61,019 nucleotides of DNA from Microcaldota archaeon (lineage in GTDB: Archaea; Micrarchaeota; Micrarchaeia; Micrarchaeales; CABMGC01). Where the stretch lies: NCBI GenBank assembly GCA_021801225.1, contig JAJYYF010000007.1, forward strand, positions 1 through 61,019, in the 5' to 3' direction. The notes below the pieces were generated by a model, which saw only the letters and a program-made list of their open reading frames with translations, did not search any database and was not told the origin of the DNA. Made by a program: the position numbers and the translations under genes. Below are positions 17,095 to 59,804 of the stretch, piece after piece (within the stretch, counting starts at the first letter, position 1; every line of letters starts with the position of its first letter).

Positions 17095-17925
17095 TTAAAA
17101 TAAAGCAAGAATAGCAAGCGAATTTTCTAAAATATGTGCAACTATTGATGGATATATAGAGTTTGTTTTTTTGTATGCATAACCTGCAAGTATACCAAAT
17201 ACAGTTGCTGCAGTTATCAAAAGAACAAAAGAAACAAGATCTATTGATGAGTAATAACCAGAGTGTAGTAATCCGAATATAATTGCGCTAGGAACTATCC
17301 CAATTCTTTTGACCAATAACCCTCTGAATGTAATCTCTTCGATTATTGGAGCTATTATTGCCACAAAAAAGTAAAACCATATTGGTGGTGGAGCTGGAGT
17401 ATTTTGAAATATTGAACCGGTATTCCCAGTTATATTTGAATTAGTCGCATAGGATAAAAATGATGACAAAATTATTGTAAAAAATACTAATGTTATGAAT
17501 ATTCCCACCCCCAGTAAAAGATTTTTAGGGGTTAATGTATGTAAAGAAAGACCAAGCTCTTTTGCAAATCCTTTGTTCATTTTTTTAACAAGAAATAGGT
17601 ATGACAAAACAGTAAGTATAAATGTTAACTCAGTTGCTACTGAAGATGCAGCTTCTAAATTAGGTATTATATTAACAGCGTATAGAAAACTGAAAACTAC
17701 ATTAGTTAATAATAGAAAAACTAGTCCAAGGAATAAAAATATAATACTGTTAAGTACTTTGCTTTTTATTGAAGTTTTAGTTTTAAAAGTAAGATCTTTT
17801 TTTGTTTTTTTCTTTGAATTTAAGGTATATTTATTTGAAGATAAAGCTTTATTTTTATTATTTTTTGATGTTAATTTTGAGTAAGGAGATTTCTTTGATT
17901 TTAAGTTCTTACTTTTTTTAACTAT
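17095..17925 (-). CDS. CPBP-family intramembrane protease, apparently started at ATA
   Basis: A membrane protease of the CPBP (CAAX protease/Abi) family with the EEITFRG motif, followed by FGLLHSGYY and VAHILEN. The ORF track begins at a TTG (17607), but the same frame stays open for 106 more codons upstream. That stretch encodes a Lys/Ser/Asn-rich cytosolic leader and an additional membrane helix (SIIFLFLGLVFLLLTNVVFS), consistent with a real protein. No ATG, GTG or TTG occurs in it. The frame opens after TAA at 17928-17926, and the first codon is ATA at 17925, preceded by GTG-ATTAA, the same context that precedes ATG in lemA. I place the start there (276 aa). It follows rps27ae by 5 bp. Confidence 0.75.
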   Translation of the reverse strand: MVKKSKNLKSKKSPYSKLTSKNNKNKALSSNKYTLNSKKKTKKDLTFKTKTSIKSKVLNSIIFLFLGLVFLLLTNVVFSFLYAVNIIPNLEAASSVATELTFILTVLSYLFLVKKMNKGFAKELGLSLHTLTPKNLLLGVGIFITLVFFTIILSSFLSYATNSNITGNTGSIFQNTPAPPPIWFYFFVAIIAPIIEEITFRGLLVKRIGIVPSAIIFGLLHSGYYSSIDLVSFVLLITAATVFGILAGYAYKKTNSIYPSIVAHILENSLAILALF

Positions 17926-17929
17926 TTAA

Positions 17930-18076
17930 TCACTTTTTAAGTTCAGTATAATGACACTTACCACATGCATATCTATTTGCATGAGACGCCATCCTTACTC
18001 CACATTTAGGACAAAACTTTTCTGCAGCTTTGTAAGGTGTCGTTTTCTTTGCTTTTGTTTCTTTTTTTTCTGCCAT
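17930..18076 (-). CDS. rps27ae: 30S ribosomal protein S27ae
   Basis: A 48-residue zinc-ribbon ribosomal protein missed by the ORF track. A basic N-terminus ([20 protein letters not shown]) leads into [20 protein letters not shown], the four-cysteine S27ae signature, and ends HYTELKK. It binds the small subunit head. It lies 60 bp downstream of rps24e, the usual archaeal neighbour, and follows the TGATTAAATG ribosome-binding context. Full length for an archaeal S27ae without a ubiquitin fusion. Confidence 0.95.
17931..17934 (-). promoter_or_regulatory. ribosome-binding site deciding an ATA start
   Basis: Minus strand AGTG-ATTAA-ATA. The GTG core, partly inside the rps27ae stop region, sits five bases before the ATA at 17925. 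This is identical in spacing, and in the ATTAA spacer, to GTG-ATTAA-ATG of lemA. Confidence 0.5.
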
Positions 18077-18135
18077 TTAATCAAATCTCATTGAATATTA
18101 ATTTATAATTATTATTGCTTTTCTTCTTTAGCTCC

Positions 18136-18528
18136 TTATTTCTTTTCCTCCTTAGGAGCTTCCTTTTTCTCTTCTTTCTTTTCTTGCTTTGGTTTTTCTG
18201 CCTTAGCCTCTTCTTTCTTTTCCTCTTTTGGCTTTTCTTCTTTTGGTTTTTGTGTTTCTTCTCCCTTAACTGACTTTTCGTACATCATCATTTCTTCTTT
18301 TTTATTGTAAGAATTAACAGATATGTTACATTCCTGAACTCCGTATTGTTGGTCTATTCTGGTTATAACAGTAAGAGATGGATTTAAGTTTTGTAATTTA
18401 CATATCTCTTCTTTTATCTTTCCTTTGCTAGGTGTCTCTCCTTTATAGTAAGCTGTGAAGGTCAACTCATGTCTTTTCAAAAGCTTATTCTCTTTCTTAT
18501 TATCTAATTTTAATTCTAAATTTTCCAT
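18136..18528 (-). CDS. rps24e: 30S ribosomal protein S24e with charged tail
   Basis: A 130-residue protein whose first 90 residues are S24e (NKLLKRHELTFTAYYKGETP, followed by a KGKIKEEI segment). The remaining 40 are almost purely Lys/Glu/Pro/Ala repeats (KPKEEK, KEEAKAEKPKQEKKEE). The tail is longer than in most archaeal S24e. After the TAA stop the frame continues with seven codons of the same composition (GAKEEKQ) before the next stop, suggesting that the repeat was once longer. The gene directly abuts aIF5A (TAG then ATG) and precedes rps27ae. Confidence 0.93.
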   Translation of the reverse strand: MENLELKLDNKKENKLLKRHELTFTAYYKGETPSKGKIKEEICKLQNLNPSLTVITRIDQQYGVQECNISVNSYNKKEEMMMYEKSVKGEETQKPKEEKPKEEKKEEAKAEKPKQEKKEEKKEAPKEEKK

Positions 18529-18933
18529 CTAAACACTTCCTGTTACTCTAGATATAGCCCGTTTTTCTCCATAAATCATTATTTCTATCTCTGCACCTGG
18601 CTTTACTGTGTTTTGTAAATCCTCAGGTATAGGTATTTCAAATGTTTCATAAGACTCTAAATCCATTATTTGAGCACTATTTCCTGAAATAGAAACGACT
18701 TGTGCTTTTTTCTTACTTATTAATGGTATTTCTATATCCCCGCTGCTAGGTTTTAGTAATGTCCTTTTATTTCCATCAAAAACTCCTATTCCAGTGATAC
18801 GCATTTTAGCTGCTCCATGTTTTCCTGGTGCGGATGTTTCTACATCTACCACTCTACATGGGATTCCATCTATAAGAATAAATCTTCCAGTCTTAACTTC
18901 TTTCATTGATGCATATGATATTTCTTCAGACAT
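18529..18933 (-). CDS. eif5A: translation initiation factor aIF5A
   Basis: A 134-residue aIF5A that stimulates peptide bond formation at difficult sequences. The hypusination loop SAPGKHGAAK places the modified lysine at K38. The N-terminal SH3-like domain (to about residue 70) and the C-terminal OB domain (75-134) are both complete. It is the first gene of an aIF5A-S24e-S27ae operon. Start: GTG-GTTAA-ATG. A TTTAAATATTTTTGTATATAA region about 35-60 bases upstream probably holds the promoter. Confidence 0.97.
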   Translation of the reverse strand: MSEEISYASMKEVKTGRFILIDGIPCRVVDVETSAPGKHGAAKMRITGIGVFDGNKRTLLKPSSGDIEIPLISKKKAQVVSISGNSAQIMDLESYETFEIPIPEDLQNTVKPGAEIEIMIYGEKRAISRVTGSV

Positions 18934-19033
18934 TTAACCACAGTACTTTCTAATTTCAAAATATGAATTAGTATAGTAAATATTATATACAAAAATATTT
19001 AAACCCTTTTAGTTTTTGTTTTTTATTGAATAT

Positions 19034-20956
19034 TTACTCTTTACTTTCTGCGCTCCAGTCTATTTTATCATTATATGAATTATTTGATTCATAAGAATCA
19101 ACTGATTTTTTCGATAATGAAATAGGTGATTCATTTGAGAACTCACTTTCTTTCATTTTTGGCTTATTTCCATTTGAAGTTGAAGGATGATCGTCACCAT
19201 TATTACCATTAGAAGACCCAGTATCGCCGTTATTTCCTTTGTAATAAGAACTTCCTGAATCATTCTCTTTTGAGCTATACATGTAATCATAGTCATCTGA
19301 TCTTCTTCTGTATAATAAGTAAGCTACTATTATGATTACTACAATTCCTACAATATATAATGGAGGTATTGGCAACTTTATTCCAGATATTGAAAAGCCT
19401 TGATTATTTTGCTGTGGAGAATTTATTTTTAAAGTAACATTGCTAGAACATTGTTGAGGGTATGATGTTACATCACAAGCTACTAGATTGTAAGTTCCAT
19501 CTTGCATTAATGAAGTACTATATGTTATATTTCCAATTCCCGTAGCTATTAAATCATTGTTTGCAAATAAAGCGACTTTGTCCAAACCGAAATTTGTTGA
19601 AGCATATATTGTATTTTTTGTACCATAACTTACATTATAATAATTATTATTTACATTGTCTACATTTAATTGAACTTCTGGAACTCCTGTGTACGTAGTT
19701 GTGTTTATCTGTGGTCTTGCGCTAGGTTGAATTACCTTAATTGCAGAACCACATATCAATAGTTGAGATGTCAATTGAGTGTAACCAGATATATTAACTA
19801 ACTTAATTGAGTAAGCTGAGTCATTTATTTGACCTATATTTACACTTTGTCCTACACCTAAAAAGTAAGAAATGTTATTAACAGATACACTAGCTCCATC
19901 TTTGGTGAGTAATGTTTCTGCTACCTTGAAATCATGTGAATAGACATTAGTTGTATTATAAGTTCCCTGTGATAAAGTAATAGTATTACATATGGGATTT
20001 GTTAACGTAGTAGAAGGTTCTTGTTGTGGTATCTGAGTTGTTGGAGATCCTACATTTATGTAAACTAAGTTTGATTTGACTGGTTTACTATTTGAAACTG
20101 CAGAGTCATAAACCATAACATAATACTGAAAATGTCCTGCAGTAAATAAATTAAGGGTTAATGTGTTTGAGTTTGAATTACTTATTAAAGCTTGTTGATC
20201 GTTAGTGTTATTATACCACATATAAGTATAAGTTCCAGAACCTCCTTTTGCAGTTGCATATAATGTTTGTTGTGATCTTATCGCATCATTTGTTACATAC
20301 GGAGATGCTTTTACTGTAAGTGGTGAGCCAACAACCGTTACCTTAGATATTGCAGAAGTTACTCTGCCTAATGAATCAATAACTGTAACTTGTACGCTAC
20401 CATCTTGTGTTGCACTAAATGTACATGTATATGTATCACAAGGCAATGTTATTTGAGCTCCTGAAAGTGGAATAAAGTTCCAGTTATAAGTATATGGAGC
20501 TGATCCACTTGATACTGAAACTTTCATAGTAATATTTTGTCCAAAATCTGCTGCTTGATTATTTGGGCTGACATATGCAGTAAAGAAGTTTGGATTTTGA
20601 ACATATATGTAATTTGTGACGTTTGCTATATTGTTATATTGATCAATAACAGTTAATGTAACGTTACTATAACCAATTGTTGATGAGTTTCCATTAAAAG
20701 TAAGTATTCTTGAATCTCTTCCAACAGGTTGTCCATTTACTGACCATTCATATAAATAAGGAGGATAACCACCAGATACTGAAGCAGTTACTGTTTCATT
20801 ATTACCTATTGAAAGTACAGATTGTTGAAAGTTTAATGTTGCAGATATACTTTGAAAAAGTTTAAACGATGCAGCACCTACTGTAGAAAATAAAAACATT
20901 GAAAATAATACTAATAAAAATATATTCTTCGTTTTGTCACCAGCAATGAATACCAT
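19034..20956 (-). CDS. large surface protein with PKD/Ig-like repeats
   Basis: About 640 residues: signal peptide (NIFLLVLFSMFLFSTVGAA), then at least three tandem PKD/Ig-like modules. These share a GGxPPYxYxW-type motif (GGYPPYLYEWSVNG, GSAPYTYNWNF, GGSGTYTYMWYNN) and end in strands such as VTLTVIDQYNN and VQVTVIDSLGR. A second extracellular region, a membrane helix (LYIVGIVVIIIVAYLLY) and a Ser/Asn/Gly/Asp-rich cytosolic tail follow. Many N-X-S/T sequons are present. It is a plausible S-layer or adhesion component. The ATG at 20956 lies 27 bases from the TATA centre and is preferred over the track start at 21004; an ACG nine codons later with a GTG-N5 context is an alternative. Confidence 0.8.
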   Translation of the reverse strand: MVFIAGDKTKNIFLLVLFSMFLFSTVGAASFKLFQSISATLNFQQSVLSIGNNETVTASVSGGYPPYLYEWSVNGQPVGRDSRILTFNGNSSTIGYSNVTLTVIDQYNNIANVTNYIYVQNPNFFTAYVSPNNQAADFGQNITMKVSVSSGSAPYTYNWNFIPLSGAQITLPCDTYTCTFSATQDGSVQVTVIDSLGRVTSAISKVTVVGSPLTVKASPYVTNDAIRSQQTLYATAKGGSGTYTYMWYNNTNDQQALISNSNSNTLTLNLFTAGHFQYYVMVYDSAVSNSKPVKSNLVYINVGSPTTQIPQQEPSTTLTNPICNTITLSQGTYNTTNVYSHDFKVAETLLTKDGASVSVNNISYFLGVGQSVNIGQINDSAYSIKLVNISGYTQLTSQLLICGSAIKVIQPSARPQINTTTYTGVPEVQLNVDNVNNNYYNVSYGTKNTIYASTNFGLDKVALFANNDLIATGIGNITYSTSLMQDGTYNLVACDVTSYPQQCSSNVTLKINSPQQNNQGFSISGIKLPIPPLYIVGIVVIIIVAYLLYRRRSDDYDYMYSSKENDSGSSYYKGNNGDTGSSNGNNGDDHPSTSNGNKPKMKESEFSNESPISLSKKSVDSYESNNSYNDKIDWSAESKE

Positions 20957-20978
20957 AGTATATATTTTGTGTTTTTTG

Positions 20979-20989
20979 ATATATAAAGC
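20979..20989 (-). promoter_or_regulatory. promoter of the PKD/Ig-like surface protein
   Basis: Minus strand GCTTTATATATC. Its TATA centre is about 27 bases before the ATG at 20956, predicting a leaderless mRNA. The box is the same as that of the sequon-rich surface protein gene at 11582. Confidence 0.6.
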
Positions 20990-21084
20990 TTTGCTATATC
21001 TCAATTACTGTATACTTAATTAATAAAAACATTGAATAAAACCAGTAAAACTATAAAAATTTAAAAATAAAAAACAACTTTAAA

Positions 21085-21579
21085 TCACTTTAGAGCTTTT
21101 ACAAGGTTGAGTAATTTATCTAACTGCTGATTCCACCCCATAGTCATACCTTGTATTGCAGATGGTGCTTTTGGACCTTCCATTTTAGTTACAATTAAAT
21201 CTACAGATAACTTTGTCTTATTGTCGATTTTTTCAAATGTAACAGTAACTTCCTGTTCTATGAAGGTATTACTGCTTCTATCTACATCATCAAGAGCCCC
21301 GCTTGTATAGACTAATTTACTATTTGGAATTACCTCTTTGAATGTGCCATTCATTGGCCATTTTATTCCTTCTGCAGGACCAAGCTCCTTTCCTGCCAAC
21401 ATAACTATATATATTTTACCACCTGGTCTTGCATCCCATTCACAAGTAGGATTTGTTACCCCAGTAGGACCCCACCATTTTTGAATCAGATTTTTATCTG
21501 TCCATGCCTTCCAAACTAATTCCACAGGTGCATCTAACATTCTCGTTAAATGCAGTTCTTTTATAAGTTCGTTTTCCAT
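21085..21579 (-). CDS. SRPBCC (AHSA1-type) domain protein
   Basis: A 164-residue START-like/AHSA1 protein with the usual landmarks LTRMLDAPVELVWKAWTD near the N-terminus, KWWGPTG, and a C-terminal GWNQQLDKLLNLVKAL helix. The fold has a hydrophobic cavity for small ligands, but the ligand is unknown. Its gene lies 4 bp after an ArsR-type regulator gene. The ArsR-SRPBCC pair is a common two-gene cassette in bacteria and some archaea, and may have been acquired horizontally. Start: GTG-ATATA-ATG. Confidence 0.9.
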   Translation of the reverse strand: MENELIKELHLTRMLDAPVELVWKAWTDKNLIQKWWGPTGVTNPTCEWDARPGGKIYIVMLAGKELGPAEGIKWPMNGTFKEVIPNSKLVYTSGALDDVDRSSNTFIEQEVTVTFEKIDNKTKLSVDLIVTKMEGPKAPSAIQGMTMGWNQQLDKLLNLVKALK

Positions 21580-21583
21580 TATA

Positions 21584-21895
21584 TCACTTAGTATTTTCTT
21601 TTTGTAATAATTTTTCTAAATTATCTAAACGTGAGTTCCATTGAGTTTCAATTTTTTTAGCCCATTCTTCTACTTCGACAACTTTTGAGGTATTTATAAA
21701 ATAAATGTGCTTTTGTGCTTTCTTTTTCATCAAAACAACTTTAGCTTCTAATAATACATTTAGATGTTGAGAAATTGCTTGTGCAGTAATATTAAATTTT
21801 TTTGATATTTCTCCAGAAGTTAACTGACCGTTTATCGCCAGTAACTCCAAGATCTTTCTTCGCCTAGGTTCTGCAAGTACATAAAAAGTGTCCAT
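21584..21895 (-). CDS. ArsR-family winged-helix regulator
   Basis: A 103-residue winged-helix repressor. It has the classic ArsR opening FYVLAEPRRRKILELLA, a recognition helix within TAQAISQHLNVLLEAKVV and a wing ending KAQKHIYFINTS. No metal-binding Cys pair is visible, so it is probably a metal-independent regulator. It is expected to control itself and the SRPBCC gene 4 bp downstream. A TATA-like TTTATAATATAAC sits just before the ATG, suggesting leaderless transcription. Confidence 0.9.
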   Translation of the reverse strand: MDTFYVLAEPRRRKILELLAINGQLTSGEISKKFNITAQAISQHLNVLLEAKVVLMKKKAQKHIYFINTSKVVEVEEWAKKIETQWNSRLDNLEKLLQKENTK

Positions 21896-21941
21896 AGTTA
21901 TATTATAAACTAATTACTTTATAAAGCTTCTGCTTTAATAA

Positions 21942-23060
21942 TCATTTGAGTAACTCGGTTTTAATAATTAGGTCAGAACCAATAAAATTACCATACAACT
22001 TAGATGATTCTAAAAGCAAATTATTTTCTTCTTTTGAAAGTTTTTTAAACATTATATTAGTCAATGCAACTTTATTTCTATAACTTTGTTTCTTCCAAGT
22101 TCCCACAACTTTTCCATTTAAAACAATTATCGGTTTAAAAATTCCATTGCTATGTATTAGTGATAACTTGCCACTTTTAAGTAAAGACTGTGTATTTTTA
22201 TCTTCTAGAATTATCTTTCTATCTGAGTAGCTAATTAAATACTCATCAAAAGCAGGAAGTAAGTACACGGAAGGTTCTTGTTTTTTAACGTTACTGAATT
22301 TTTTATTTAAATAAAATACGGTATCTTCAATTTGAGTTGATGTAATTTCTTTTGATAACTCAATACCTAACTTTGCATCAGATGTTGTTAATCCAGACCA
22401 CCAAACAAAATCTTTTATTGTTGCAGGACCATGACTTGTAAAGTATGTAAGAGTTAATTTTTTAATTGCTTCTTCTCTAGACATAACATTATCTTTTTTA
22501 GGTATGCAATCTTCAAGAAGCATAAATGTTTGCTCATTTTCTTGATAACTTCCAAAGCATATTAAGCCATCCCAAGCTGCACGATACAGCATGTGATAGC
22601 CAAGATTATTTTTTGATGGAATGCCAGCTTTATCCATTATTGAATACATTTCTTTACGAGATAATTGTTTTTTTAATTTTAATGCATTTTTAAAAAGAGT
22701 TAATGTTTTTTCAACTGTAGAGTTAGATAAGCCAAGAGATTCATCACGTCTTATTGCTGTTTTATGCAAACGTGGACCGAATAAATTTAGCATATACTTT
22801 ATATCAGAGCTGCGGCCAAAATGAATAGTGCCCCTCATTAACCATGTGCGTATTATTTTATGATTAGATATAACAGTTTCAACATCTTTTTTTGTGGTGC
22901 CTTTTTTTGATCGTAGTGCAATAGCGTATAATGCAGATTGATAATCTTGTGCTTGAATAGCACCCATAGATGAAACTACATCTTCAGGAGAGTTGAAAAG
23001 ATTTGAAGAAATACCTTGTGTCTTTAATCTAATTTCAAGTATATTGTTAAGTTCCATCAA
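21942..23060 (-). CDS. AlkZ-like winged-helix DNA-binding protein (HTH_42 family)
   Basis: A 372-residue protein of the winged-helix DNA-binding (AlkZ/YcaQ-related) family. Features are the N-terminal MGAIQAQDYQSALYAIALR motif, TWLMRGTIHF, the central LYRAAWDGLICFG, and PATIKDFVWWSGLT. AlkZ/YcaQ relatives are HEAT-like DNA glycosylases acting on bulky or crosslinked alkyl lesions; QAQD resembles their Q-x-Q/D catalytic motif. Activity is inferred. Together with the AlkD-like and Ogg genes, this is the third candidate base-excision enzyme in the window. It lies near the ArsR-SRPBCC pair on the same strand. Confidence 0.82.
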   Translation of the reverse strand: MMELNNILEIRLKTQGISSNLFNSPEDVVSSMGAIQAQDYQSALYAIALRSKKGTTKKDVETVISNHKIIRTWLMRGTIHFGRSSDIKYMLNLFGPRLHKTAIRRDESLGLSNSTVEKTLTLFKNALKLKKQLSRKEMYSIMDKAGIPSKNNLGYHMLYRAAWDGLICFGSYQENEQTFMLLEDCIPKKDNVMSREEAIKKLTLTYFTSHGPATIKDFVWWSGLTTSDAKLGIELSKEITSTQIEDTVFYLNKKFSNVKKQEPSVYLLPAFDEYLISYSDRKIILEDKNTQSLLKSGKLSLIHSNGIFKPIIVLNGKVVGTWKKQSYRNKVALTNIMFKKLSKEENNLLLESSKLYGNFIGSDLIIKTELLK

Positions 23061-23137
23061 TAAATAATAAAAATTAAACTATAAAGAGTTATCCTTGTTT
23101 TTTATTTAAATGATTTATTTATTGAAAAATAAGTATT

Positions 23138-44359: not shown

Positions 44360-44374
44360 CAATAGGGTGAAGAA

Positions 44375-45166
44375 ACGGAAAATAATAAACGTTTTGAAAA
44401 TGACAATACAATAAACAAAATAATAGATGCGCATAGTGGCATGATTGGAAAAAATATTGCTGCGAAGATAGAATCTAATAAAAATTATAGCAAAAGTAAT
44501 GTTAAACAGCTTATTGCATTAAGTCCAAACGATAATGAGTTAGTTAGTATTGAAGACACAGTATATAGGATTTTTAATAAAAATAGGATAGAAAATAATG
44601 GAGTTACAAGATTAAGGAGAGATTTGGTTTTAGGTGAGGAAGGCAGTACATTGACTGTTGTTTTATGGGATAAAAGTTGTGAATTAGTTGATACACTTCT
44701 TGTACAAAGAGGTGATAAAGTTTTAATAAGCAATCTTAAGGTTAGAACTATTCAGGACTCAATAGAACTAATTAATACAGCAGGAACTTATATCTCAAGA
44801 GTTATTCCAACAGAGATTGATGTTAAAACTGATTTTTCAAGTTTAAATGGAAATGAAAAAAATATAGATATATTAGGAAGGATACTTTCAGTAAGTCCAA
44901 TTAGATACTTTAAAGATTTAGATGGAAAACAAAATGGTATATCCGAATGCACCATAAGTGATGGTTTTGTTGAAGGAAGAGTTACATTATGGAAATCTTC
45001 GAGTGGTTATGCAAATGAAATGCACCCTGGTTCATATATTAAAATAGAATACTGTTCAATTAAAAAGATAGAAGATAAGTTAGATATAACTGCAAATGAT
45101 TACTCAAGAATTTTGTTAGGCCAGGGGCTTACACCAAAAACAAATAGAAAAAATATTAAAAAATAA
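44375..45166 (+). CDS. rpa: replication protein A-like single-strand DNA-binding protein
   Basis: An OB-fold protein of the archaeal RPA family, with two OB-like units: LRRDLVLGEEGSTLTVVLWD followed by LISNLKVRT, and GRILSVSPIRYFKDLDGKQN followed by GRVTLWKSS. No zinc finger is present, so this is a short single-chain RPA. The first ATG in frame is 44441, but coding-like sequence (RFENDNTINKIIDAHSG) continues upstream without a canonical start. An ACG at 44375 follows GGTG-AAGAA, the local ribosome-binding spacing. I place the start there (263 aa) with moderate confidence; ATG 44441 is the conservative choice. Confidence 0.8.
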   Translation, partial: TENNKRFENDNTINKIIDAHSGMIGKNIAAKIESNKNYSKSNVKQLIALSPNDNELVSIEDTVYRIFNKNRIENNGVTRLRRDLVLGEEGSTLTVVLWDKSCELVDTLLVQRGDKVLISNLKVRTIQDSIELINTAGTYISRVIPTEIDVKTDFSSLNGNEKNIDILGRILSVSPIRYFKDLDGKQNGISECTISDGFVEGRVTLWKSSSGYANEMHPGSYIKIEYCSIKKIEDKLDITANDYSRILLGQGLTPKTNRKNIKK

Positions 45167-52866: not shown

Positions 52867-53775
52867 TCAACCACTTTCTAAAGAATTTTTTCCATGCCAG
52901 TAAAGATACTGTTGTGCGTACCCTGCAAAATCTCCCCATTTATTATATGCAAAATCATGTATGTAATTAACATTTTTCTTTTTACCTTTTAAGTATTTAT
53001 TTTCTACAACTCTTTTTATCCAGACATCTATTGGAAATGACTCGACGTGTTTATAACCAAATAAAAGAATACAGTCAGCTACTTTATCCCCGACGCCGTC
53101 AAGTTTAAGTAGTTCTTCCTTTGCTGTTTTGTACTCTAATCTGTTTAAATGATCGAATGAAAAACCATTTTTAATATTTGTTGAGACGCTTTTGATGTAC
53201 TTTGCCCTAAACCCAGTGCCACATGACATTAACTCAGAAATTGACGCTTTTGATATTCTTTCAGGAGTAGGAAAAAGAATTGTTTTTTTACCATCAATAT
53301 AGTAAGGCTCTCCGAATTTATTAATTAAGTTTTTCATTATTAACCTTATTCTTTTAAGATTATTAAACTGCGAAACAAGAAAACAAAGAGTTGTTTCCCA
53401 AGGAGGATTTTGAGTTACTCTCATGCCATAAAATCTATTTATTGCCTCTTCCATAAATTGATCTGTTTTAATTCTATTGTAAATTTTATTCATATCGTCA
53501 GTTATGCTTAAACGCTTTGTTATTTCCTTTTTTGCTGAGTTAGATGAATAATCGCCAAAGTAATCTAGTCTCAATATCCCATCTAAAGAGTTTTTACTAA
53601 CTAAAATTACACCTTTTTCAGTAGTATAACGAAGTATATCCCAATTATTTTTACGTATAAAATCTGAATAAAAAGTAAGTGGCTGTCCGCTCTCTATAGT
53701 ATCCTTTATGTTAAGGTCATGTGCCTCTATTTTTATCGGTTTTCTTAGCGATTCAAATGTTCCATCTAAATATAT
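52867..53775 (-). CDS. ogg: 8-oxoguanine DNA glycosylase (Ogg1/HhH-GPD), apparently started at ATA
   Basis: A HhH-GPD glycosylase that excises 8-oxoguanine. The helix-hairpin-helix LDGVGDKVADCILLF carries the catalytic Lys, and the nucleophile-activating Asp lies in FPIDVWIKR; CGTGFRAKYI is Ogg1-typical. The track starts at TTG 53574, which would delete the N-terminal TBP-like domain. The same frame upstream encodes it clearly (NIKDTIESGQPLTFY, matching Ogg's D-T-x-x-SGQ-xF block). No ATG, GTG or TTG is available; AGGTG-TTTTA-ATA gives a standard spacing, so ATA at 53775 is taken as start (302 aa, normal length). Confidence 0.85.
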   Translation of the reverse strand: MYLDGTFESLRKPIKIEAHDLNIKDTIESGQPLTFYSDFIRKNNWDILRYTTEKGVILVSKNSLDGILRLDYFGDYSSNSAKKEITKRLSITDDMNKIYNRIKTDQFMEEAINRFYGMRVTQNPPWETTLCFLVSQFNNLKRIRLIMKNLINKFGEPYYIDGKKTILFPTPERISKASISELMSCGTGFRAKYIKSVSTNIKNGFSFDHLNRLEYKTAKEELLKLDGVGDKVADCILLFGYKHVESFPIDVWIKRVVENKYLKGKKKNVNYIHDFAYNKWGDFAGYAQQYLYWHGKNSLESG

Positions 53776-53780
53776 TAAAA

Positions 53781-53785
53781 CACCT
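53781..53785 (-). promoter_or_regulatory. ribosome-binding site deciding an ATA start for ogg
   Basis: Minus strand AGGTG-TTTTA-ATA, directly after the GlyRS stop codon. The spacing of five bases between GTG and the start codon equals that of fifteen canonical genes in the window. Confidence 0.55.
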
Positions 53786-55264
<1,479 letters not shown>

Positions 55265-56419: not shown

Positions 56420-56917
56420 TTACCAAGGAACCTCTTTTAATTTTGCCTTATGTGCAATCTTATTTGTAAACTTATGCAAAACACCGGTTAGTATAAATAT
56501 AAAGATTAATCCATATATGCTAGGAAAGTTGCCTAGCGGAAATGCAAATAAAAGTGCAAATATAAGAAAAAGGTACTGATCCATAAGAAATATATCCTTT
56601 CCTTCTTTATGCCCCATCTGCCTCTTTATAAAACTGCCAAACATATCTCCAAATAAAGTTCCGAAACTTAATACTATGCCTATTACAAACATAAATGGTA
56701 GTGCAAGAGAGAACAGAGCGCCTATTAAAGTGCCTGAAAGCATTCCAAATACGAAGCCGCGTATGGTTTTATGCTTTCCTAAAATAGGTTTTCCACGAAA
56801 CTTTTTACCTAAATCTATAGGCCTTCCTCCACCAAATATTACGGGTGCTCCGTTAGCAACATATGCAGGGAAGATATAAATTAAGGGATAAAGTATTATT
56901 GTCCAAAGATAATCCAA
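56420..56917 (-). CDS. carS: CDP-archaeol synthase
   Basis: A 165-residue membrane enzyme of the CarS family that makes CDP-archaeol from CTP and unsaturated archaetidic acid, the branch point of archaeal polar lipids. It has four or five helices, the cytosolic loop PVIFGGGRPIDLG...GKHKTIRGF, and the second active-site loop GDMFGSFIKRQMGHKEG. Full length. TTG start in the context GTG-ATTTA-TTG. It confirms ether-lipid synthesis and links to the CDP-alcohol transferase at 15.7 kb. Confidence 0.93.
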   Translation of the reverse strand: MDYLWTIILYPLIYIFPAYVANGAPVIFGGGRPIDLGKKFRGKPILGKHKTIRGFVFGMLSGTLIGALFSLALPFMFVIGIVLSFGTLFGDMFGSFIKRQMGHKEGKDIFLMDQYLFLIFALLFAFPLGNFPSIYGLIFIFILTGVLHKFTNKIAHKAKLKEVPW

Positions 56918-57062
56918 TAAATCACAGTAATAATTGTAAAGATAAAGAGAACAATTATTAATATATTTCTATAGTAAAAAAATATTAGAATTTGATGTTT
57001 TTATCATAAATTTTTTTCTTTTGTATATTCAACTTGTTATTTTATTTTCTTAGAAGCTCTTT

Positions 57063-59747
57063 TTATCTACTTATTATACCTTCTGCACTTTCCTTTGAAC
57101 CTCCGCCTTTGAATGTAGATCCTATGTTTTTTTTAGCGAACTCCAAAGCTCCATAATCTGAATTAGAACCTGCGATACATACTACCTCTCCTTGTTTGTT
57201 TTTTGCAAGTAAAGTAAGAGATGGCCTTTGAAGAATTACATATGATAATGCCTTTCTAAGTATCTCCCTGCTTCCTTCTTGTTCAACCACAGCCGTACTC
57301 TTTGATGTATCTATATCACTTAAAAGCTGCTTTGCTATTACCTGAGCTAGCTCTTCATCCTTATCCCTTGATGACTTGAGCAACAAAGAGTAATCATTTC
57401 TCATTTTTTCTATCTTAAGATTAACACTTTCAAGATCTGAGTTAAGAGATGTTGCAATACTGCTTAGTTCATTGTGTTCATTTTGAATATACTCAAGAGC
57501 TGCTTTGCCCGCAACAAACTCTATTCTATCTACTCCATCGTGTATTCTTGATGTGTTTATTATCTTTATCATCCCTATTGAGCTTTCGTAAGAAGCAACA
57601 TGAAGTCCTCCGCATGCCTCAGCATCTATAAGTTTACCATTTTTATCAGTAATTATTATTATGCGCATAAGCTTTGCAGGAACTCCATGACCTTGATATA
57701 TTGTAAAGCCGTAACTTTGCTCTGCATCTGCACGGCTCATCTCTTTTACCTCAACCTTTATTCCATTGAAAAGTATTGTGTTTGCAAGGTCCTCTATAGC
57801 TTTTACATCTTCTGGAGTTAACTTTTCGTAATGAGCTATATCTATGTGTGCTTTATCCTCATCCTTTCTTGCGCCTTCCTGCCATGCGTGCTTGCCAAGT
57901 ATTGTCCTTGCAGATGCACTTATTATGTGAGTTGCTGTATGATGAGCCATTAATTTTTTCCTTCTTTCTGTATTTACAATACACTTTACAACTTTACCCT
58001 TTGATATATTTGCATCTGGAAGTTTTTTGAGTATATGGACTATAATGTTCCCTACCTTTTGTACATCCTCTACATCTATGCTATTTATAGTTCCTGTATC
58101 TGATGCTTGGCCTCCTCCTTCAGGATAGAAAGGGGTTTTGTCAAGTACAACGTACCTGTCTTTTACATAAAGAACCTTTGAACTTGACTCTGATTTTAAA
58201 TCATAATATAACTGCTCAGTTTTTGGCAGCTCTTCGTTAAAGTCTATATTTAATTTTTTTGTTTTTTCCTTTACTGCAAAGTCTCCTTTTATTATATCTT
58301 CATATGCATTATCAGGAAGTTCTATTTTTTTATCCTCTGCTGTGGCTATAGATGTAATAAGCTCTGGTGTTACGCCATTGCTTTCATATAAAACACGTAA
58401 CTCATCCTTTGTTATGCTTGATTTCTTTGATAGTATATTTGTTATTAGCTTTCCTGCTTTGTTTATTGAGGACTCATATCTTTTCGCTTCTACATCGATT
58501 ATTTTTGAGAGTATGTCTAAATTATCATTCAACTCAGGATATAGGCCTTTAAGCTCTACGGCTTGTTTTTCTGCTATCTCCATTATGCTTATATCCATTT
58601 CATACTCTTTTATGAATGCTAGAGCTCTACGTAGTATTACTCTTAGATTATAACCGCCGCCTATATTCGAAGGCAGTGCACCATCTGATACTCCAAACAA
58701 CAATGTTCTCGTATGATCAAGTATTGAATAAAATGCCTGCATCGGCTTTATTATCTTTGTATACTCATCACTGCTCAGTCCTGCTTTCTTAAGTATCTGT
58801 GTTTCTAATTTTTTGTACTCCTTTGTTTCGGTTACATCGAGCTCGCTTGCGTGCTTAGCGAATTTTTTAAATGCTACATTATTCATTTCGAAAGGTAATT
58901 CTTTCTTTGTTTTGCTTATTATGTCATGAAATACCGCATCGTATATATTGTCGAATCCAGTATAAAACCATAATAACCTCTCAAACCCCCAACCTACATC
59001 AACAACCTGGCCTTTAAGCTCGTGTACCTTACCATTTATGCTCTCGAATTGAGTAAATACATTGTTGACCAGCTCAAGTCCGTTTGAGAAGCCTTCTAAG
59101 CATGGGCCAAACTCTGAGAAATCTCCCATTGCCCATACGTCCTCGTTATATACAAGCTCCTCCTTTTTAACTCCTAGTATTCCAGTTAAAAATTTATAAT
59201 CAAGCTCCATCGTCCTGTCTCTCCAATAACCTTCTTTTGGATAGTTAAAGGCATGCTGACCTGCCATCATGAAGCTTGTAAGATGTCTTCCAGTAACACC
59301 TACATTTTCAATATCTCCAAACCTCAAGCAGATCTGTGGAACTATAAGCGGATTAGCGTTGTATTCAAAGTGCATAGCTCCGTTTTCTATTCTTTGAAAA
59401 TCTTGTATGCTAGCTATAGTGAAATAAAGATCCTGTCTCCATCTGCTAACAACAGGATATCTTTTAATGGAAGCATGATTATTCTCCTCAAAAAATTTAG
59501 AAAACTTTTTCCACATCTCTACGTATGAAATAGGAGTAGGTTTATCCTTGAAAAATGAGTACTCGGTATGCTCTGGATCTTGACAGGTATCCCTTTCTGA
59601 TATACTCCAGAAGTTCTTTCCACAGAGTTTGCAAGTATATCTGTTAAAGCCTTCCTTTTCGAATATCTTTGTTGAGTAGTAGGTTTTAGGATTTTTTGAG
59701 AACTCCTTTCTTAGCTCTTTTTTATCGAGTTTTATTCCATCAAGCAC
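57063..59747 (-). CDS. alaS: alanyl-tRNA synthetase
   Basis: An 894-residue archaeal-type AlaRS. The N-terminal class II core has GFNRYTCKLCGKNFWSISER and the family's W-x-QDLYFTIASIQ and MMAGQHAFNYP. The editing domain has HHTATHIISASARTILG and the CGGLHVAS zinc motif. The C-terminal C-Ala domain ends with FKGGGSKESAEGI. GTG start in GGTG-TTCAT-GTG. The gene is noticeably richer in G+C (about 40 percent in sampled lines versus 25-30 in neighbours), which may reflect selection on an abundant protein or acquisition. Confidence 0.97.
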   Translation of the reverse strand: MLDGIKLDKKELRKEFSKNPKTYYSTKIFEKEGFNRYTCKLCGKNFWSISERDTCQDPEHTEYSFFKDKPTPISYVEMWKKFSKFFEENNHASIKRYPVVSRWRQDLYFTIASIQDFQRIENGAMHFEYNANPLIVPQICLRFGDIENVGVTGRHLTSFMMAGQHAFNYPKEGYWRDRTMELDYKFLTGILGVKKEELVYNEDVWAMGDFSEFGPCLEGFSNGLELVNNVFTQFESINGKVHELKGQVVDVGWGFERLLWFYTGFDNIYDAVFHDIISKTKKELPFEMNNVAFKKFAKHASELDVTETKEYKKLETQILKKAGLSSDEYTKIIKPMQAFYSILDHTRTLLFGVSDGALPSNIGGGYNLRVILRRALAFIKEYEMDISIMEIAEKQAVELKGLYPELNDNLDILSKIIDVEAKRYESSINKAGKLITNILSKKSSITKDELRVLYESNGVTPELITSIATAEDKKIELPDNAYEDIIKGDFAVKEKTKKLNIDFNEELPKTEQLYYDLKSESSSKVLYVKDRYVVLDKTPFYPEGGGQASDTGTINSIDVEDVQKVGNIIVHILKKLPDANISKGKVVKCIVNTERRKKLMAHHTATHIISASARTILGKHAWQEGARKDEDKAHIDIAHYEKLTPEDVKAIEDLANTILFNGIKVEVKEMSRADAEQSYGFTIYQGHGVPAKLMRIIIITDKNGKLIDAEACGGLHVASYESSIGMIKIINTSRIHDGVDRIEFVAGKAALEYIQNEHNELSSIATSLNSDLESVNLKIEKMRNDYSLLLKSSRDKDEELAQVIAKQLLSDIDTSKSTAVVEQEGSREILRKALSYVILQRPSLTLLAKNKQGEVVCIAGSNSDYGALEFAKKNIGSTFKGGGSKESAEGIISR

Positions 59748-59804
59748 ATGAACACCAATAAATGTGAATATTATAAATTAAATCTATAAAATATTATGTA
59801 TTTT

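Follow-up and report, generated by a model that had tools for sequence, protein, structure and literature searches.

The ogg gene of this Micrarchaeota genome very probably begins at an AUA codon (position 53775), set behind an exactly spaced Shine-Dalgarno (SD) motif, and its genomic and comparative context points to a habit that recurs in this organism and its order. We regard ogg as one case of this wider habit because the genome and the order hold several more non-canonical starts. The window, that is, the whole stretch of 61,019 nucleotides that was analyzed, belongs to a 965-kb draft genome (G000), and the genomes compared with it are drafts from metagenomes. One of them, G002, has a match among public contigs, from Candidatus Micrarchaeota archaeon MAS3.bin57. 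Coordinates are collected in Table 1.

Table 1. Features of the ogg locus and of two further genes with putative non-canonical starts, in positions of the window.
Feature	Position	Strand	Remarks
ogg coding sequence	52867..53775	-	From the ATA, 302 aa and a stop codon; 8-oxoguanine DNA glycosylase relative (translation, domains, structure relatives)
ATA start codon of ogg	53773..53775	-	ATA kept in G001 and G002; canonical start absent in all three
Shine-Dalgarno AGGTG of ogg	53781..53785	-	5-nt spacer to ATA; SD model trained on ATG genes
In-frame TAA upstream of ogg	53791..53793	-	Restricts possible ogg starts to downstream codons
TTG, first canonical codon of the ogg frame	53572..53574	-	Rejected as start; 67 conserved codons precede it
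glyS, upstream neighbor of ogg	53786..55264	-	glyS stop overlaps the SD region of ogg
Rce1-like CPBP protease	17095..17925	-	From ATA 17925-17923; canonical codon absent for 106 codons; PF02517, E 5e-17
GTG of SD AAGTGAT, Rce1-like gene	17931..17933	-	5 nt ahead of ATA 17925; score 7.0
OB-fold protein	44375..45166	+	From ACG 44375-44377; next ATG 22 codons on, without SD; G001 ortholog starts ATG GAA
SD GGTG of the OB-fold gene	44366..44369	+	5 nt ahead of ACG 44375; score 8.3

From the upstream stop at 53793, the ogg frame on the minus strand reads TAA TTT AAA GGT GTT TTA ATA TAT TTA GAT GGA. A preliminary description of this DNA had stated that no ATG, GTG, or TTG lies between that stop and the TTG at 53574, and our reading of the frame agrees; the TTG comes 67 codons after the ATA and corresponds to residue 68. 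The SD motif was learned from ATG genes, where it takes the form GGTG/GTGAT with the GTG most often 5 nt before the start. The five-base spacing described earlier as typical of canonical genes was indeed the mode, with a GTG 5 nt upstream in 32 of 160 ATG genes. Scored with this model, the ogg ATA reached 7.3, compared to a 99.9% null value of 5.9. A TTA at 53604 also had a good SD score (6.6), but it lies inside the constrained coding sequence of ogg and was rejected as a start.

In the product read from ATA, Pfam placed OGG_N (PF07934) at residues 14-128 (32.7 bits, cut-off 23) and HhH-GPD at residues 132-266 (37.6 bits, cut-off 26.2). Half of OGG_N lies in the 67 codons ahead of the TTG, in line with the earlier claim that these encode the Ogg N-terminal domain. 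Structure relatives were the glycosylases 4ejy, 3f0z, and human OGG1. The segments GDKVADC and FPIDVWIKR align with 4ejy and 3f0z at sites which we take to be the catalytic Lys of the HhH and the Asp of the PxDVW loop. The NCBIfam model TIGR00588 matched with 151.8 bits (E 2e-44), below its curated cut-off of 397.85, and the protein is therefore named an ogg relative, clear but divergent. With the archaeal-type glycosylases 4ejy and 3f0z it shares OGG_N, HhH-GPD, and the catalytic Lys/Asp region; compared with them, only its start codon is unusual.

Two separately assembled species, G002 and G001, encode Ogg proteins 92% and 71% identical to that of G000. Comparison with Ogg homologs of related genomes had been proposed as a check on the start codon, and both species carry ATA, not ATG. 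Specifically, their ogg frames run from a TAA through a few codons and GGTGTTTTA or GGTGTTTGT into ATA TAT, with the canonical start absent; GGTG exactly 5 nt upstream (GGTG-N5) followed by ATA is common to all three genomes. The first canonical codon after the ATA is an ATG at 39 codons in G001 and lies at 88 codons in G002. Across codons 1-67, G000 and G002 differ at 16 codons synonymously and at two non-synonymously, third positions holding 16 of the 18 base changes (P = 1.7e-6); between G000 and G001, third positions hold 34 of 55. Codons 6-16 (TFESLRKPIKI) specify an identical protein in the three species, with five of the codons differing in DNA. This constraint places the start of ogg coding in codons 1-6, among which only ATA is one mismatch away from ATG. 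G011, from another genus, likewise has an ogg without a canonical start, in the form CGTG-N5-ATA, and nearly all other ogg loci read had ATG, GTG, or TTG at or near the expected start.

Other readings of the locus were weighed against this pattern. Translation from the TTG at 53574, with the upstream frame a relic or chance, would suit annotation software, for which this is the first acceptable codon. A start at residue 68 would halve OGG_N, however, and would leave the constraint on codons 1-67 unaccounted for; the SD score at this TTG was only 1.9, and the first canonical codon sits elsewhere in G001 and G002, so we give the TTG almost no credence. A different non-AUG start might be used, e.g., the ATA of codon 14 (53736), the point at which the minimal homologs begin; several relatives do start near that residue. 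Such a start is very unlikely, as codons 6-13 hold the protein via synonymous changes in all three species and no GGTG-N5-like SD is found at the codons there. Sequencing or assembly error must be considered in a draft metagenome assembly, in which a single changed base (G at 53773, giving ATG) would make ogg ordinary. Yet the identical ATA recurs in the two separate assemblies at the identities given above, and several further genes are in the same state. The worry over one miscalled base is answered by the conservation of the codon, of GGTG-N5, and of the canonical-start absence in three species, and we judge such an error extremely improbable.

The neighboring glyS offers another route, in which ribosomes would extend GlyS into Ogg by frameshifting or readthrough, or would re-initiate without a start signal. 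The glyS stop does lie ~10 nt upstream of ogg in G000 and G002, in a frame other than that of ogg. In G001, however, it lies ~30 nt upstream, in the ogg frame and with a second stop behind it, and in G011 glyS is divergently oriented relative to ogg. With the glyS end varying in place and frame, fusion or frameshifting is excluded as a common rule; GGTG-N5-ATA is the only constant, and although coupling could still help, there is very little chance that it replaces a start signal. RNA editing could also turn the start codon into AUG. Editing of ACG starts to AUG occurs in chloroplasts, a precedent that would suit the ACG gene of the window, but a separate edit would be needed for each of ATA, GTA, CTG, ATT, and ATC (see below), and the tight association with GGTG-N5 would be left unexplained; editing is hardly conceivable as the cause. 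The ATA start proposed for ogg in the preliminary description is supported by all comparative evidence. It passes every comparative test made and, judged from sequence comparisons, appears to be part of a recurrent practice in the order.

The presence of further non-canonical starts was investigated in 281 of the 965 kb of G000 (238 genes in 11 stretches) and in stretches of relatives, by scoring each in-frame codon from the upstream stop to the first canonical codon. Near-cognate codons reached the strict SD threshold at six of 341 upstream sites vs. 12 of 7103 inside genes (p = 1.4e-4). The figures for other codons, which showed no such enrichment, were 3/1545 and 64/47374, and the three upstream matches were the GTA of FEN1 and two codons within the extended N-termini of ogg and prolyl-tRNA synthetase (ProRS). 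Strict matches comprised ATA (ogg, Rce1-like, GNAT, ASCH), GTA (FEN1), CTG (ProRS), and ACG (OB-fold). Apart from ogg, the 238 genes yielded six or more additional non-canonical starts preceded by the SD motif, two of them within the window. At a loose threshold (99%), matches at unrelated codons were about as frequent as predicted by chance, and the strict threshold, together with the orthologs, therefore carries the argument. The ATT start of SIMPL came from the looser scan and is supported by its orthologs. Pfam confirmed the identities of the scan genes, that of the OB-fold protein weakly and below its cut-off. In GNAT and NMD3 the start of the domain lies ahead of the first canonical codon; this is not so for ASCH, a case that stays uncertain. 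A CTA after a stop (L115, 15999, minus strand) was dropped, as it looked like a chance frame. No non-canonical case was found in a 100-kb sample of G003, from the same genus.

Several of these starts could be followed at fixed positions between species. The Rce1-like gene has AAGTGATTAA-ATA immediately behind a stop, and its G001 ortholog (61% identical) has the identical AAGTGATTAA-ATA. SIMPL begins ATT AAA ACT GAA CAT in G000, ATG AAA ACA GAA CAT in G002, and ATA AAA ACA GAA CAT in G001, where a TTG four codons upstream is a possible alternative start. ProRS has GGTGTTTAT-CTG in both G000 and G001, the OB-fold gene starts ACG GAA in G000 vs. ATG GAA in G001, and FEN1 starts with GTA in G000 and G002 and with GTG in G001. 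The Nop5 start is GTG in G000 and GTA behind GGTG-N5 in G007, the alternative there being a TTG 11 codons later. NMD3 shows GGTG-N5-ATA in G042, a genome from another family that consists of one contig.

Other observations were made along the way. An unknown-function protein (L116, 12227-12829, minus strand; G000:C26) has GGTGGTTTT-AGG at its apparent start in G000, G001, and G002, a weak case since G000 and G001 resemble each other in the frame upstream as well. A nucleotidyltransferase-like gene of G034, named by inspection only, has an apparent ATC start with GGTG-N5 (L165, 13539, minus strand); its next canonical codon is a TTG 15 codons on. Within the window, the proteins of six adjacent genes at 17095-23078 are 100% identical to those of G002, against ~70-97% for the rest, reflecting either recent exchange or a shared assembly piece. 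Two genes at 56420-59777 are 97% and 89% identical to G001 but only 83% and 78% to G002. This pattern, opposite to that of the neighboring genes, suggests recombination between species.

FEN1, which has a fixed start (xAVDIGKL), allowed a single position to be surveyed in 128 Micrarchaeota genomes. Its start codons were ATG in 91, TTG in 16, GTG in 13, and non-canonical in eight: GTA (G000, G002), ATA (G007, G033), CTG (G081, G026, G032), and ATC (G050). All eight non-canonical starts had GGTG exactly 5 nt upstream, compared to 8 of 120 canonical ones (Fisher P = 9e-9, an optimistic value given that the genomes are related). By codon, GGTG-N5 preceded 2/91 ATG (2%), 2/13 GTG (15%), 4/16 TTG (25%), and 100% of the non-canonical starts. 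GTG and TTG starts carry GGTG-N5 more often than ATG, SD strength rising with the weakness of the start codon. The eight genomes are spread over six genera, seven in one family (f1) and one in another (f2) of the same order, and no non-canonical FEN1 start occurred in ~47 genomes of other families (counts approximate).

A simple mechanism would account for these patterns. The GGUG probably pairs with the 16S rRNA 3' end, putting the codon 5 nt downstream into the 30S P site, where the ordinary initiator tRNA (anticodon CAU) may accept AUA despite the third-base mismatch and presumably insert methionine. This rRNA end was looked for and not recovered, and the anti-SD is accordingly deduced from the SD motif. 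Behind a strong, exactly spaced SD, AUA, GUA, CUG, AUU, AUC, or ACG would be tolerated as a start, and such codons could replace AUG, GUG, and UUG, or be replaced by them, at a given position over evolution, likely at the price of lower output. The graded GGTG-N5 frequencies suggest that exact placement of the 30S by the SD replaces the missing codon-anticodon pairing. We lean towards a start-codon rule loosened genome-wide in a Micrarchaeota order, such that codons near AUG or GUG start genes given GGUG exactly 5 nt upstream, even housekeeping genes (ProRS, FEN1, NMD3, Nop5), with the codons drifting at fixed positions.

The initiation machinery was inspected for an obvious cause. The initiator tRNA (L062) is ordinary, with A1-U72, the GGG/CCC stem, and a CAU anticodon, and a special initiator tRNA was therefore rejected. 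Loss of aIF1 was rejected as well, a SUI1 protein being present in G000, G001, and G002, so that the standard apparatus shows no obvious gap. aIF1 is held to favor discrimination against such starts (PMC6237735), and its presence counts against the near-cognate reading. GUA has two mismatches to CAU, and simple near-cognate pairing accounts for it poorly; lying two mismatches from AUG, GUA gives a hint of some altered property in the initiation machinery. Among the other tRNAs, L070 1501-1609 (G000:C6:33472-33580) is an intron-bearing tRNA with UAU in the anticodon loop, apparently a tRNA-Ile for AUA where an agmatidine CAU tRNA would be usual; CAU anticodons were seen in only two tRNAs, including the initiator. 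Many tRNA genes of G000 bear introns (e.g., L067-L071, L073, L076, L077, L100, L102-L106, and L108), and that of L073 apparently lies in the D arm.

According to a 2021 review, demonstrated non-canonical events in archaea were confined to elongation and termination (PMC8211752). We found no report of near-cognate starts in archaea, including DPANN/Micrarchaeota, in the open-licence literature, an absence that is not proof. Such starts are known from a few bacterial genes, and as far as we found their recurrent use in an archaeal order would be new. If true, this would be the first evidence, within the same literature, of near-cognate starts as a standing archaeal practice. Since gene finders accept only ATG, GTG, and TTG, it would also mean that these archaea have a few percent of their genes either annotated without the N-terminus or overlooked altogether. 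FEN1, with GGTG-N5 at 8/8 non-canonical vs. 2/91 ATG starts, would then serve as a natural experiment on a strong SD replacing start-codon pairing.

Among known systems, E. coli infC starts at AUU and is, as here, a near-cognate start of a chromosomal gene. It is autoregulated by IF3 (autoregulation mentioned in PMC13009471), whereas none of Ogg, FEN1, and ProRS is an initiation factor. Weaker GUG and UUG starts are compensated by a stronger SD (Belinky et al. 2017, PMC5622118), as observed here, and among 61,358 AUG starts the same study counted two switches to CUG and one to AUU; the trend in our genomes extends beyond ATG, GTG, and TTG. A further parallel is S. aureus, where infC, ccpN, and citZ (AUA) and cvfC1 (AUU) have non-canonical starts (PMC13009471, 2026). 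As here, these stand behind a strong SD, and those of ccpN and cvfC1 are conserved across species. In S. aureus, AUA and AUU starts with extended SDs yield ~10-30% of the AUG output. That system is bacterial, involves IF3, and comprises four genes of a single genome, of which two or more have a regulatory role. The archaeon, in contrast, appears to use such starts in several housekeeping genes for every third of a genome sampled, with more codon types (GTA, CTG, ATC, ACG) and in free exchange with canonical codons.
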